Positions 25,865-32,987 of a stretch of 64,000 bases of DNA are shown piece after piece. The position numbers and the translations under genes are program-made. This DNA is from Myxococcus dinghuensis (GTDB lineage Bacteria > Myxococcota > Myxococcia > Myxococcales > Myxococcaceae): contig NZ_JAKCFB010000004.1 in NCBI RefSeq assembly GCF_024198235.1, forward strand, positions 124,001 to 188,000. The letters are read 5' to 3'. Positions within the stretch are counted from its first letter, which is position 1. Each line of letters starts with the position of its first letter. Under the pieces are notes generated by a model. It was not told where the DNA came from. It searched no databases and worked only from the letters and a program-made list of their open reading frames with translations.

Positions 25865-26358
25865 CCATCGCCGTCTACGCCGGCAGCTTCGACCCCATCA
25901 CCTCCGGGCACCTGTCCGTCATCCGACAGGCCGCGCGCCTGTTCGGGCACGTCGTGGTCATCGTCGCCGTCAACCCCGCCAAGAACACCCTGCTCACGCC
26001 GGACGAGCGCGTGGCCCTGGTGCGCGACGCGGTGGCCATGCACCCCAACGTCACCGTCGCGCGGACGGACGGCCTCATCGTCGACTACGCGCGGGCCATC
26101 GGCGCCAGCGTCCTCCTGCGGGGGGTGCGCGGGGCGACGGACGCGCAGTTCGAGACGGAGCTGGCGCAGAACAACCGCGCGCTCGCGCCCGAAATCTCCA
26201 CCCTCTTCCTGCCCGCCGAGGCCCACCTGGCCGAGGTGAGCAGCAGCGCCCTCAAGTCCCGCGCCGCGAACGGCGAGGACGTCTCCTCCTTCTGTCCGCC
26301 CGCCGTCGCGGCCATGCTGCGCGAGCGCCTGCACCCCTCCCTCCGGAGCCCGACATGA
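25861..26358 (+). CDS. coaD: Pantetheine-phosphate adenylyltransferase
   Basis: This 165-residue nucleotidyltransferase transfers AMP from ATP to 4'-phosphopantetheine, the fourth step of CoA synthesis. It has AGSFDPITSGH (T14 to H17 as the TxGH motif), LLRGVRGATDAQFE, and SSSALKS in the place of the family's ISSTxVR. The length is normal. Its ATG overlaps the MFS stop and its own stop overlaps the next start, so an essential gene lies inside a TetR-controlled operon unless an internal promoter exists. Confidence 0.96.
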   Translation: MTIAVYAGSFDPITSGHLSVIRQAARLFGHVVVIVAVNPAKNTLLTPDERVALVRDAVAMHPNVTVARTDGLIVDYARAIGASVLLRGVRGATDAQFETELAQNNRALAPEISTLFLPAEAHLAEVSSSALKSRAANGEDVSSFCPPAVAAMLRERLHPSLRSPT

Positions 26359-27101
26359 GCCTGTCCTTCATCCCCCTGGGCGTGGGCGACGCCTTCTCCG
26401 CCCTCTTCTATTCGTCCTGCCTCGCCGTGGAGGCCGAGGACCAGGTCCTCCTCATCGACTGTCCGCACCCCATCCGGAAGATGATGCGCGAGGCGTCGCT
26501 GTCCTCGGGCGTGCCGCTCGACGTGGACCGCGTCAGCGCCGTGGCCCTCACCCACCTGCACGCGGACCACTCCTCCGGACTGGAGGGGCTGGGCTACTTC
26601 TCCTTCTTCGTGCTGAAGCGGAAGCTGGAGCTGCTGGCGCACCCGGCCGTGGCCGACCGGCTGTGGGCGGGGCACCTGGCCGCGGGCATGGAGTGTCTCA
26701 TCGAGAAGCGCGGCGAGCCGCCCAACCCCAAGCACTTCGAGGACTACTTCGAGCACACGCCGCTCTCCACGGAGGCGTCCGTGCGGCACGGCCCCTTCCT
26801 CATCGAGGCGCGCATGACGTACCACCACGTGCCCACCACCGCGCTGCGCATCCACGCGGGCGGCCGGTGCCTGGGCTACAGCGCGGACACCGCCTTCGAC
26901 GAGGGCCTCATCTCCTGGCTGGGCAAGGCCGACCTCGTCATCCACGAGACGAACTACGGCGTCCACACGCCCTACGAGAAGCTCGCCGCGCTGCCCGCGG
27001 AAACACGCGCGCGCATGCGCCTCATCCACTACCCCGACGACTTCGACACCCAGGCCAGCGTCATCGAGCCGCTGGTCCAGGGCCGCCGCTACACCGTCTG
27101 A
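26355..27101 (+). CDS. Metallo-beta-lactamase-fold hydrolase (RNase Z-like)
   Basis: This 248-residue protein has the metal motif THLHADH (H67, H69, D71, H72) and a later YSADTAFDEG. ADLVIHETN follows, a segment shared with RNase Z and phosphodiesterase-like MBL proteins. It is soluble with no signal peptide. The substrate cannot be assigned; tRNA 3' processing is possible but the protein is short of the RNase Z exosite. It ends the tetR operon and is followed by a strong terminator. Confidence 0.85.
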   Translation: MSLSFIPLGVGDAFSALFYSSCLAVEAEDQVLLIDCPHPIRKMMREASLSSGVPLDVDRVSAVALTHLHADHSSGLEGLGYFSFFVLKRKLELLAHPAVADRLWAGHLAAGMECLIEKRGEPPNPKHFEDYFEHTPLSTEASVRHGPFLIEARMTYHHVPTTALRIHAGGRCLGYSADTAFDEGLISWLGKADLVIHETNYGVHTPYEKLAALPAETRARMRLIHYPDDFDTQASVIEPLVQGRRYTV

Positions 27102-29076: not shown

Positions 29077-29317
29077 GGTGACAACCTCCCTGTGTGTTCA
29101 GGGGGCGTCCTAGCAACCGCAGTGAAGTGCGAGCAAACCGCCTTCAAGTGAATTCTGTAACTTTCGGCCATGACACACTGTGCCACCCCTCCAGGATTCC
29201 CCGCGCGAGCGGCAACCCGAGGTAGGGGCATGGCGGGTGTGCTCGCCTTCGACGCGTGAGTGCGCTACTCCCGCGAGCCCGGCGCCGCCCGGGCGCCCCA
29301 GGAGAGAACGACTCGCG

Positions 29318-30922
29318 ATGACGACGACGACAGCGCCGGCCCGAACCGGGGCCCTGCTCCTGCCGCTCGCGCTGCTCTGGGCGCTGGCGCCGGCGTCCGC
29401 CCTGGCGGCCGAGCCCGTCAAGCCCGTGCGGCTGACCTTCCTCCACCTGGCGGACGTCTACCAGGTGCAGCCCGTGCAGGGCGGGAAGGCGGGAGGGCTG
29501 GCGCGGGTGGCCACGCTGCGCAAGCAGGTGCTGGCCGAGGCGCCGGGCGCGCTGACGCTGCTGGGCGGTGACACGCTGTCGCCGTCGGTGGAGTCGCTCC
29601 TGGAGGTGGACGGCCAGGCGCTCAAGGGGCGCCACATGATCGACGCGTGGAACGCGCTCGGGCTGGACGTGGCGGTGCTGGGCAACCACGAGTTCGACTT
29701 CGGCGACGACGTGCTGAAGGAGCGCATCCGCCAGTCCCGCTTCCCCTGGCTGGGCGCCAACGTCACGAACGCGAAGACGGGCGCGCTGTTCGACGGCGTG
29801 AAGACCTACGACGTGCGGGAGATGGACGGGGTGCGCGTGGGCCTGTTCGGCGTGGTGCTGCCGGAGACCAAGACGACCACCAAGGCGGGGCCGGACACCG
29901 TGTTCGGCGACGTGTGCGAGGCGGCGAAGGGCGCGGTGGCGAAGCTGCGCGAGGACGGGGCCCAGGTCATCCTCGGCCTGACGCACCAGACGCTGGAGCA
30001 GGACCGCGCGCTCGCCCGGTGCGTGAAGGTGGACGCCCTGCTCGGCGGGCACGACCACGTGGGCGCGGCGGACCGCTCCACGGGCACGCCCATCTTCAAG
30101 GTCCCCGCGGAGGCGGTGGAGCTGGGCAAGCTCACCCTCGACGTGGACGCCAAGACGGGCCAGGTGCGCAAGACCACGTGGAAGCGGCTGCCCGTGACGT
30201 CCAAGGTGCCGGAGGACGCGGCGTTCAACGAGGCCATGAAGGCCTATGGCCCGCTGTTCGCGCGGCTGGCGGAGCCGGTGGGGCGCACGCCCGTCGCGCT
30301 GGACGCGCGGGGCACGTCGGTGCGCACGCGGGAGACCAACCTGGGAGATTTCGTCGCGGACGCGTTCCGCGAAGCCGCGGGCGCGGACGTGGCGCTGGTC
30401 AACGGGGGCGCGCTGCGCTCGGACGCGGTGCTGCCCCCGGGCGTGCTGACCCGCAGGGACCTGCACGGGCTCATGCCGTACACGGACGCGCTCGTGGTGG
30501 TGGAGCTGAGCGGCGCCACGCTGCGGGCCGCGCTGGAGAACGGCGTCAGCCTCAGCCGCGAGGACGCCCGCCCCGGCCGCTTCCCCCAGGTGTCCGGCAT
30601 GCGCTTCACCTTCGACGCGCGCAGGCCCGTGGGCGAGCGCGTGCGGGAGGTGACGGTGCACGGCAAGCCGCTCGACCCGAGCGCCACGTACCGGCTCGCC
30701 ACGCTGAGCTTCCTCGCCAGCGGCAAGGACGGCTACGACGTGCTGAAGGGGCAGCCCGCCACGCCCGCGCTGGCGGACGGGCGCGCGCCGCTGGAGGTCA
30801 TCGCGGAGGCCTTCCGCACCGGCCGCCCCACCCCGCGCGCGAAGGGCGACGGCCGCATCGTCCGGCTGGACGGTCAGGCACTGGCGCCGGACGCGCGCCG
30901 CCCCGCACCGCCGATGAAGTAG
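29318..30922 (+). CDS. Secreted 5'-nucleotidase / metallophosphatase (UshA family)
   Basis: This 534-residue exported enzyme has signal peptide LLLPLALLWALAPASALA with cleavage near 31. The metallophosphatase domain has GGDTLSPS, GNHEFDFG, THQ and GGHDHVG. The C-terminal nucleotide-binding domain has NGGALRSD, YTDALVVVELSG and a late FLASGKDGYD. It should release phosphate from nucleotides in the periplasm or outside. The first metal motif is LADVYQ instead of the usual DxH, so one histidine ligand is a tyrosine. GGAGAG lies 11 bases before the ATG. Confidence 0.92.
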   Translation: MTTTTAPARTGALLLPLALLWALAPASALAAEPVKPVRLTFLHLADVYQVQPVQGGKAGGLARVATLRKQVLAEAPGALTLLGGDTLSPSVESLLEVDGQALKGRHMIDAWNALGLDVAVLGNHEFDFGDDVLKERIRQSRFPWLGANVTNAKTGALFDGVKTYDVREMDGVRVGLFGVVLPETKTTTKAGPDTVFGDVCEAAKGAVAKLREDGAQVILGLTHQTLEQDRALARCVKVDALLGGHDHVGAADRSTGTPIFKVPAEAVELGKLTLDVDAKTGQVRKTTWKRLPVTSKVPEDAAFNEAMKAYGPLFARLAEPVGRTPVALDARGTSVRTRETNLGDFVADAFREAAGADVALVNGGALRSDAVLPPGVLTRRDLHGLMPYTDALVVVELSGATLRAALENGVSLSREDARPGRFPQVSGMRFTFDARRPVGERVREVTVHGKPLDPSATYRLATLSFLASGKDGYDVLKGQPATPALADGRAPLEVIAEAFRTGRPTPRAKGDGRIVRLDGQALAPDARRPAPPMK

Positions 30923-30983: not shown

Positions 30984-31121
30984 GGGGGGTGTTTCAAGCC
31001 TCGTGTCTGGCAACCAACGGCCGGTATTGCTCCACTGCCCCGCGCACGGAGCCCCCTTCCTCTCCGACGTCGCGACACCTGGCCCTGGGACTCCGCATCC
31101 ACCCCCACGCGGGAGCTGCCC

Positions 31122-32204
31122 ATGGCCGAGCTGGAGACGTTCCGACTGCCGGAGTCCGTGAGCGGAAGTGACGCCGACATCACGTTGGCGTTGTCGATGA
31201 TTCAAGCCTGGCGGAAGGACGGAATCTTCCAGGTCCAGACGACGAACGCGCAGGAGCTGAAGGTGCAACGCGCCTTCGAGGCCAGCCGGCGCTTCTTCCG
31301 TCAGCCCATGGCCGCCAAGGCCCGCTGCGTGAGCGACCTGACGTACAGCGGCTACATCGCCTCGGGCGAGGAGCTGACCGCGGGCGAGGCGGACCACTCG
31401 GAGGTGTTCACCGTCTGCAAGGACGTGCCGCTGACGGACGCGCGCGCCCAGGCCCGCTGGCCCTGCCACGGCCCCGCACCGTGGCCGGACGAGGCCTACC
31501 GCCGCGCGATGAAGGACCACCTGGAGGGGCTGGGCGCCATCGGCGACAAGCTGCTCCAGCTCGTCGCGCTGGGGCTGGGGCTGGACGACATGCACGTGCT
31601 CACCCGCCTGACGCGCGAGGGCTGGCACCACATGCGCGTGCTGCGCTTCCCGGCGCGCTCCCCCACCGCCACGCGCGGCATCGGCGCGCACACCGACTAC
31701 GGCCTGCTCGTCATCGCCGCGCAGGACGAGGTGGGGGGCCTCTACGTCCGCCCCCCCATCGAGGGCGAGACGCGCCCGCGCAACTGGCTGCCCGGGGAGA
31801 GCTCCGCCGGCAGGTACGAGGACGACGAGCGCTGGACGTACGTCAAGCCCGTGCCCGGCGTCCTCACCGTGTTCCCCGGCGACATCCTCCAGTTCCTCAC
31901 GCGCGGCTATCTGCTCTCCACCCCGCATCGGGTCCGGCTCAACACGCGCGAGCGCTTCGCCATGGCCTACTTCCACGAGCCCCACTTCGAGGCCTGCGTC
32001 CGCCCGCTCACCCACCCCGCCGGCAACGAGTTCATCCACTACGGCTCGCACTTCACCCACATGTTCATGCGCAGCTACCCGGACCGCGTCACCACCCAGC
32101 GCATCCTCGACGAGGACCGGCTCACCGTCCTCGCCTGGCTGCGCCACGAGGCCGTGCAGCGCACCACGCCCGTCGAGGAGGAGCGCCGGCTCGCCACCGG
32201 GTGA
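31122..32204 (+). CDS. efe: 2-oxoglutarate-dependent ethylene-forming enzyme (EFE) homologue
   Basis: This 360-residue Fe(II)/2-oxoglutarate oxygenase keeps the characteristic blocks of Pseudomonas EFE (350 residues) along its length: SDLTYSGY, SGEE.TAG, WPCHGP.PWP, DGWHHMRVLRFP-like, RGIGAHTDYGLLVIAAQD, NWLPGESSAG, FPGDILQF, LNTRERFA, YFHEP and YPDR.TTQRI. Fe ligands are H190, D192 and H269; R278 binds 2-oxoglutarate; E84, R172, Y193, F284 and R317 match EFE's arginine- and ethylene-determining residues. It should convert 2-oxoglutarate to ethylene and CO2, and in a side reaction hydroxylate arginine, giving guanidine. It is cytoplasmic with no signal peptide. GGGAG precedes the ATG. I see no guanidine riboswitch or exporter beside it. 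Confidence 0.88.
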   Translation: MAELETFRLPESVSGSDADITLALSMIQAWRKDGIFQVQTTNAQELKVQRAFEASRRFFRQPMAAKARCVSDLTYSGYIASGEELTAGEADHSEVFTVCKDVPLTDARAQARWPCHGPAPWPDEAYRRAMKDHLEGLGAIGDKLLQLVALGLGLDDMHVLTRLTREGWHHMRVLRFPARSPTATRGIGAHTDYGLLVIAAQDEVGGLYVRPPIEGETRPRNWLPGESSAGRYEDDERWTYVKPVPGVLTVFPGDILQFLTRGYLLSTPHRVRLNTRERFAMAYFHEPHFEACVRPLTHPAGNEFIHYGSHFTHMFMRSYPDRVTTQRILDEDRLTVLAWLRHEAVQRTTPVEEERRLATG

Positions 32205-32213
32205 GGCCAGGCC

Positions 32214-32987
32214 TCAGGGCGCCGTCCAGCCACGGAGGCGATACACGGCGCGCCCCGCGAGCTCGCGCAGCGCGTCCGTGCTCTGGTTGAGGAAGCCCGC
32301 GCGGGGCAGCCAGCTCGAGCGCCCCGCGCGCTCGCTCGGCGTGCGGGCGTCCACCGGCAGCGTGTCGGGGTGCAGCCCCACCGCCGCGAAGCAGCCCGCC
32401 GCGCGGGGCATGTGCGCGGCGCTCGTCACCAGCAGCAGCGTGCGCCAGCCCCGCTCCTGGACGATGCGCGCGGACTCCACCGCGTTCTCCCGGGTGTTGC
32501 GGCTGCGGCCCTCGGTGACGATGCGCTCGGCGGGGATGCCCCACGCCTGGAGCTGCCGCGACAGCACGTCCGCCTCCACCACCGCCTCGGGGCTCGGGTC
32601 CAGCGAGCCGCCGGAGAGCAGCACCTGTCGCGCCCGGTCCTCCCGCAGGAGCTCGAAGCCACGCAGCACCCGCTCCACGGCCGCGTTGTACTCGGGCTGG
32701 CCCGTGCGCTCGGTGGCGGACGGGTCCAACGCTCCGCCCAGGACGATGACCGCGTCGTACGTCACGTCCGGCCGGGACGTGTCCCGCGCGCCCGCCTCCA
32801 CCGCGCGCGTCAGCGCCGTGGCCACCCCCTCCGACGAGAAGGCGTAGAGGACACCGAGCCCGGCGACGGACAGCGCGCGCGACACCGCCGGGCGCAGGCG
32901 CCGCACCCGGCCGAGCAGCAGCAGGAGCAGCGCCCAGGTCAGCGGCGCCAGGAAGAGGTCCAGCACCTTCGACAGGAAGAGGAACAC
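32214..32987 (-). CDS. ElyC/SanA/YdcF (DUF218) family membrane protein
   Basis: This 257-residue protein has two N-terminal membrane segments (about 5-25 and 36-55), then a DUF218 domain with YDAVIVLGGAL, VLLSGGSL, GIPAERIVTEGRSRNTRENA and LLLVTSAAHMPRA. Relatives such as ElyC and SanA affect cell-envelope integrity and use of the undecaprenyl carrier; the reaction is not established. It lies 19 bases after nadK on the same strand, and its 3' end faces the efe gene across 9 bases. Confidence 0.88.
   Translation of the reverse strand: MFLFLSKVLDLFLAPLTWALLLLLLGRVRRLRPAVSRALSVAGLGVLYAFSSEGVATALTRAVEAGARDTSRPDVTYDAVIVLGGALDPSATERTGQPEYNAAVERVLRGFELLREDRARQVLLSGGSLDPSPEAVVEADVLSRQLQAWGIPAERIVTEGRSRNTRENAVESARIVQERGWRTLLLVTSAAHMPRAAGCFAAVGLHPDTLPVDARTPSERAGRSSWLPRAGFLNQSTDALRELAGRAVYRLRGWTAP

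Follow-up and report, generated by a model that had tools for sequence, protein, structure and literature searches.

An ethylene-forming enzyme and an ETR1-type histidine kinase share their distribution in a myxobacterial genus

Among 27 genomes of one myxobacterial genus (Myxococcus and Pyxidicoccus records), we found that the gene for an ethylene-forming enzyme (EFE) and that for an ETR1-type hybrid histidine kinase occur in the same genomes, and neither was found alone. The EFE gene studied here is in a 64,000 nucleotide stretch of the Myxococcus dinghuensis genome, called the window below, and is of an already known kind; what we add is the paired sensor pattern, which lies outside the window. 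The usual view of bacterial ethylene receptors is that they listen for ethylene from plants, and EFE is usually regarded as serving plant pathogens. M. dinghuensis, a non-pathogen, has an EFE as well as an ETR1-type sensor; if the two cooperate, a multicellular predator would be using ethylene as a private or community signal. Our working hypothesis is an ethylene signal that is self-made and self-sensed.

In the mechanism that we propose, the EFE would convert 2-oxoglutarate and oxygen to ethylene and carbon dioxide at its Fe(II) site with arginine bound, and in a likely side reaction would convert arginine to guanidine and pyrroline-5-carboxylate (P5C). Ethylene gas would probably be a signal read by the producing cell via the ETR1-type hybrid kinase, a role proposed because the presence of the kinase matches that of EFE across the genus. 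A guanidine-III riboswitch would respond to the by-product guanidine and an SMR protein would export it; this module would also serve relatives that have no EFE.

The EFE gene and its product

As an earlier note made from the sequence alone had described, the window contains an intact EFE open reading frame (ORF), which starts with ATG at 31122 and ends with TGA at 32204. The features of the locus are:

29180..30922, plus strand: 5'-nucleotidase-family gene, left neighbour of EFE, found in 27 of 27 genus genomes
31026..31036, plus strand: ATTGCTCCACT, an 11-base block 5' of EFE, with no variation among the 11 aligned upstream regions
31111..31115, plus strand: GGGAG, likely ribosome-binding site, 6 bases 5' of the ATG, identical in all 11 aligned orthologous loci
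31122..32204, plus strand: EFE ORF, 360 aa, with DIOX_N and 2OG-FeII_Oxy domains
31688..31697 (approximate, computed from the ORF start), plus strand: codons for H190-T191-D192, which include two of the three Fe(II) ligands
31689-31691, plus strand: codon for H190, ligand position by alignment, coordinates from the ORF start
31695-31697, plus strand: codon for D192, ligand position by alignment, coordinates from the ORF start
31749..31835, plus strand: EFE-specific loop, approximately residues 210-238, including Glu216 (Glu215 in Pseudomonas numbering), full length with no deletion
31926-31928, plus strand: codon for H269, the third Fe(II) ligand, coordinates from the ORF start
32214..32987, minus strand: DUF218 protein gene, convergent right neighbour, given for context

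The block at 31026-31036 is likely a regulatory element, which we list as putative. A sigma-54 promoter reading of the conserved upstream block was dropped by eye, as the GG-GC spacing is too long. The neighbours of EFE are housekeeping-type genes, and no hint of plant interaction was found in the EFE locus or the window. No riboswitch or other Rfam element was found at the EFE locus, two tRNAs being the sole Rfam matches in the window. Recent foreign composition was not seen in EFE, which has a GC3 of 0.967 compared with 0.960-0.976 in five neighbours. The genome (10.4 Mb in 124 contigs) contains a single EFE gene, and the next relative of its product in the same genome is a distant oxygenase encoded on contig C41 (33% identity). 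Elsewhere in the window, 26355-27101 (plus strand) encodes a protein of metallo-beta-lactamase fold that weakly matches the Apyc1 (anti-Pycsar) model (46.4 bits, below the cut-off of 50).

When the protein was used to query PDB sequences with phmmer, the match to Pseudomonas savastanoi EFE scored 514 bits (E 1.2e-153) and aligned residues 1-343 of the query with 1-342, which bears out the similarity along nearly the whole length that had been reported for it. Penicillium digitatum EFE followed (430 bits, residues 2-337), and after the EFEs the next matches were the reconstructed Anc357 (112 bits) and a Pseudomonas aeruginosa IPNS-like oxygenase (105 bits). The window protein is identical to Pseudomonas EFE at 215 of 342 aligned residues (62.9%), the reference row (P0133) being a synthetic EFE in which 8 internal residues are deleted. 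No NCBIfam family matched it. Its AlphaFold model (pLDDT 86) best matched the fold of P. savastanoi EFE 5v32 (TM 0.90, rmsd 1.9, 64% identity), and the first 34 matches listed were all Pseudomonas or Penicillium EFE. As confidence in the model is lowest at residues 83-88 and 188-190 (pLDDT under 50), it speaks to the fold only and says nothing on the arginine loop or the iron motif.

All of the residues that the earlier note had named (H190, D192, H269, R278, R172, E84, Y193, A199, L207, F251, F284 and R317) are present. The +1 register shift that it gave for them holds after a one-residue insertion near residue 155, but not before it, where E84 is E84 in both proteins. In Pseudomonas numbering, the Fe(II) triad H189/D191/H268 and the 2-oxoglutarate-carboxylate residue Arg277 are all kept, as H190, D192, H269 and R278. 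The eight residues of the hydrophobic 2-oxoglutarate pocket (F175, V196, A198, L206, F250, A279, A281 and F283; list from PMC12329707 and the earlier note) are all identical, as are E84, R171, Y192, M313, F314 and R316 of the L-arginine site, M314 and F315 of the window EFE being as in Pseudomonas EFE. The beta-11 loop (209-237, as defined in PMC12329707) is of equal length and keeps Glu215 as Glu216. We aligned 217 EFE rows, partly redundant, and set aside two degenerate Actinomadura rows. In all of the remaining 215 rows the iron ligands, Arg171, Arg277, Tyr192, Glu84, Thr86, Arg316 and Glu215 are invariant, and all are present in the window EFE.

Ser318, flagged previously as the one change nearby, is not alone at or near the active site: Leu85 (Val85), Met281 (Cys280), Ser93 (Pro93), Ile79 (Val79), Ile213 (Val212) and Val323 (Ile322) also differ. 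Two of these changes, V85 to Leu and C317 to Ser, are in the arginine site, and both are also found in the active M. stipitatus EFE, so the flagged change occurs in a working enzyme. Ser in place of Pro93 is shared by 209 of the 215 rows. At six positions where at least 90% of rows agree, the window EFE deviates (V95, A109, I213, R237, R270 and S318), and Arg237, in place of Pro236 in the EFE loop, is unusual, R being found in 5/215 rows. At the ten positions correlated with ethylene formation in PMC4202696, a set that is insufficient according to that paper, eight are identical (L22, V173, A200, E214, E236, I255, F279 and I305) and two carry conservative changes, I213 (Val212) and V323 (Ile322). 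I322V alone had no significant effect (PMC4202696). The C280M substitution did not alter the formation of ethylene or P5C by Pseudomonas EFE, going by unpublished observations cited in PMC12329707, and Met at this position (Met281 in the window EFE) is found in several of the reconstructed ancestors in that paper.

A tree of 57 of 192 proteins, drawn from the best 120 of 2899 and the best 120 of 1025 matches, was rooted on Actinomadura proteins and did not include fungal sequences. The earlier note had named a position outside the EFE clade as one result that would refute its claim; the window protein fell inside that clade, so the claim was not refuted, in agreement with the residues and the fold search. 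It grouped with the G070 and P0002 proteins (100/99), and with 13 Myxococcus-type rows (100/99), within a single clade of 20 Myxococcus and Pyxidicoccus rows (92/95, below the tool's star). The Pseudomonas enzymes formed a separate clade of 11 rows (100/98) nested inside the rooted tree. This nesting suggests that EFE did not originate in plant pathogens, in a tree with no fungi and in which several deep forks are weak. EFE has a dN/dS of 0.20-0.29 against three relatives which, together with its host-like composition, indicates that the gene has long been in the genus and evolves under constraint.

Activity cannot be proven by sequence, as a close Penicillium chrysogenum homolog lacks ethylene formation. 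By sequence the window protein is nevertheless an EFE, and we predict with high confidence that it is active; this copy is probably also expressed.

Distribution of EFE and the ETR1-type kinase

We found EFE in 17 of 195 Myxococcota genomes (17/96 in the family), all of which belong to one genus (17/27). In 11 of them, including that of the window, EFE lies as a single gene with the 5'-nucleotidase gene on one side and the DUF218 gene on the other; these two directly adjoin one another in the 10 genus genomes that lack EFE. In the other six the gene is elsewhere, next to typA in 5/6, and the 5'-nucleotidase/DUF218 site is empty in 5/6, the sixth having other neighbours. Because the loci differ, EFE may have been acquired separately by Myxococcus and Pyxidicoccus; however, the proteins of both form the single clade described above, with its 92/95 support. 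One genome that lacks EFE (G078, locus L069) has a second, partial 5'-nucleotidase match after the first, likely a local duplication.

Outside the phylum, relatives that are at least 60% identical were found, among the matches listed, in Frankia, Amycolatopsis, Actinoplanes, Streptomyces and Nonomuraea, in Scytonema and Nostoc, and in Pseudomonas. EFE is thus not limited to a handful of plant-associated organisms, as had been supposed, but extends to actinobacteria, cyanobacteria, pseudomonads and many metagenome contigs. Two of the EFE-clade proteins (P0031 and P0070) are from Frankia, one from a nodule-associated genome judging by its name, and an ethylene maker in a plant symbiont would be a worthwhile lead. 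In Actinomadura, an EFE-like protein encoded at L013:8001-8939, which shares approximately 55% identity with the window protein, does not have the Asp iron ligand, Glu84 or Glu215, and in another, encoded at L014:8001-8924, the H-x-D motif is absent by eye. Both are likely degenerate or repurposed kin of EFE.

A search of the M. dinghuensis genome for the ETR1_N domain returned one strong match:

L108:4997-7504 (contig C92, outside the window): hybrid histidine kinase, 835 aa, with ETR1_N, two HisKA/HATPase units and one receiver

The ETR1_N domain of this kinase scored 104.7 bits against a Pfam cut-off of 27. It has six of the seven binding residues of Arabidopsis ETR1, which we take to be D25, Y32, I35, P36, I62, C65 and H69, and has Ser in place of Pro36. 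Seven residues are needed for ethylene binding in Arabidopsis ETR1 (PMC6682694, PMC11819568), so with six the kinase is not classed here as a proven receptor; it is likely an ethylene sensor. The Cu(I) ligands of the ethylene receptor, Asp25, Cys65 and His69 (PMC12643061), are all kept. Domains from 27 of the 29 myxobacterial genomes that contain one could be aligned; 25 of these 27 retain the copper ligands, and the Pro36 position is Ser in 20 and Ala in seven. By eye, the P. brassicacearum domain retains Pro36. The ETR gene has a dN/dS of 0.35-0.55, and so evolves faster than EFE.

ETR1_N was found in 29 of the 195 Myxococcota genomes, in 28 of them above the cut-off. Within the genus it is present in 17/17 genomes with EFE and in 0/10 without, so that the two sets are equal. 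A further 12 Myxococcota genomes contain ETR1_N without EFE. Outside the phylum, six genomes with EFE were searched (6 of 12 loci, leaving out three from Myxococcus, two degenerate ones from Actinomadura and one partial one from Streptomyces), and ETR1_N was above the cut-off in 1/6, strongly so in P. brassicacearum; the Actinoplanes match (24 bits) was under it and four genomes had none. A general association of EFE with ethylene receptors across all bacteria is thus unsupported.

The co-occurrence was assessed in species-representative genomes, with the species tree represented by one gene tree (5'-nucleotidase). In that tree G067, which lacks EFE, is placed among the Pyxidicoccus-type genomes that have it, so the absences amount to two events on the tree and not to 27 independent points. 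The receptor gene is near the same glycosyltransferase gene in 17/17 genus genomes, and also in G014 and G015, the two genomes of another genus in which the domain occurs and EFE does not. As the receptor tree also follows host groups, we infer that the receptor is ancestral, with two losses, both in lineages that lack EFE. When two losses were placed at random by branch length they hit the same two branches in 985 of 200,000 simulations, approximately 0.5%, a value that is uncorrected for the five features looked up in the M. dinghuensis genome and the two followed across relatives; with three losses the count was 576/200,000. According to record coordinates, over 1.5 Mb separates the EFE and ETR genes in six closed or near-closed genomes; the genes are unlinked, and their co-occurrence is therefore not due to neighbours hitch-hiking.

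Possible roles of ethylene and guanidine

The guanidine module is also outside the window:

L109:3164-3223 (contig C81), minus strand: guanidine-III riboswitch, 56 bits, directly upstream of the SMR gene

The SMR protein is likely a guanidine exporter. No guanidine-I or -II riboswitch was found in the M. dinghuensis genome. The guanidine-III riboswitch is present in 27/27 genus genomes and in 54/96 family genomes compared with 17/96 for EFE, and the module was rejected as an EFE accessory. Its presence in all 27 genomes, whether they have EFE or not, fits guanidine tolerance and points to nothing EFE-specific.

Tentatively, we suggest that ethylene serves some myxobacteria as a hormone of their own, with EFE and the ETR1-type kinase forming a self-contained circuit. 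Two lineages would have lost this circuit as a whole, one of them a nine-genome clade with small genomes. The enzyme could instead act chiefly as an arginine 5-hydroxylase supplying nitrogen metabolism with P5C and guanidine, with ethylene a by-product for which there is no receiver. Both reactions are catalysed by EFE (PMC12329707), the position of the riboswitch just 5' of the SMR exporter gene implies that guanidine matters to the cell, and Leu85 and Ser318 are changes at the arginine site. However, a riboswitch that is in every genome of the genus is no EFE accessory, reconstructed ancestors all had both activities in similar ratios (PMC12329707), and a mainly metabolic role leaves the match between EFE and ETR unexplained. 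We regard it as possible but doubtful. Loss of ethylene formation from an EFE-like oxygenase has a precedent in the P. chrysogenum homolog, which makes no ethylene itself and did not regain its formation when the ten residues were matched (PMC4202696), and degenerate kin such as the Actinomadura L013 protein exist. None of the catalytic losses in those proteins is found in the window EFE, the dN/dS of 0.20-0.29 indicates constraint, and a 76-77% identical ortholog with the same Ser318 and Leu85 is active, which together leave such a loss very improbable here.

Ethylene might also be directed outwards, as a signal to plants, fungi or prey, with the kinase sensing plant or fungal ethylene independently of EFE; signalling to plants or fungi had been raised in the earlier note. 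Functional ethylene receptors are known in Azospirillum and Synechocystis, and A. brasilense, for which the same paper reports no detectable ethylene production, responds to ethylene in root colonisation (PMC11819568). The twelve Myxococcota genomes that have the domain without EFE are also in keeping with independent sensing. Against it, independent sensing does not predict that the domain would be missing from exactly the 10 genus genomes that lack EFE, and the EFE locus and window hold nothing plant-related, only neighbours of housekeeping type. We consider an outward role rather unlikely. As the ETR1-type domain is in the same members of the genus as EFE, the genome evidence points at least equally to self-sensing.

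Comparison with known enzymes and receptors

Pseudomonas savastanoi/syringae EFE (PDB 6vp4, 5v2y and others) is a full-length homolog, 63% identical to the window EFE, with equal loop length and the same iron, 2-oxoglutarate and arginine residues; its Val85, Pro93, Trp247, Cys280 and Cys317 are Leu, Ser, Leu, Met and Ser in the window EFE. Penicillium digitatum EFE (PDB 9eir, 9eis) is also a full-length homolog, with a Foldseek identity of 46-53%.

The kinase resembles AzoEtr1 from Azospirillum and SynEtr1 from Synechocystis in having an N-terminal three-helix ETR1-type domain on a histidine kinase, and like them keeps the equivalents of Asp25, Tyr32, Ile35, Ile62, Cys65 and His69. Unlike them, it has Ser at the Pro36 equivalent and is a hybrid kinase in which a receiver accompanies two HisKA/HATPase units. 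It is encoded in a genome that contains EFE, whereas ethylene production by A. brasilense was below detection in the work reported in PMC11819568. No myxobacterial ethylene receptor was found in the titles and abstracts searched, and among the matches listed none described EFE and an ethylene receptor in one bacterium; most subscription papers lie outside both searches.

A myxobacterial EFE is not the surprise that the earlier note took it for. One has been known since 2014, and the window gene is one more ortholog. The M. stipitatus EFE formed ethylene in yeast, in low amounts (2014, PMC4202696), and was active in vitro and in Escherichia coli, with the top in-cell yield among five new enzymes (2022, PMC9101411). 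The published enzyme (P0005/L041, WP_015351455.1) is identical to the product of the gene in M. stipitatus DSM 14675 (G069), which is 76-77% identical to the window EFE and in the same slot between the 5'-nucleotidase and DUF218 genes. The two have Leu85, Ser318 and Val323 in common, and differ in that M. stipitatus has Leu281, Val213 and Pro where the window EFE has Met281, Ile213 and Arg237. The Phe at the Cys280 position stated for the Myxococcus EFE in PMC4202696 is absent from our alignment. As DSM 14675, with its proven EFE, has both the EFE and the ETR1-type gene, the question of an ethylene circuit is directly addressable in that strain.
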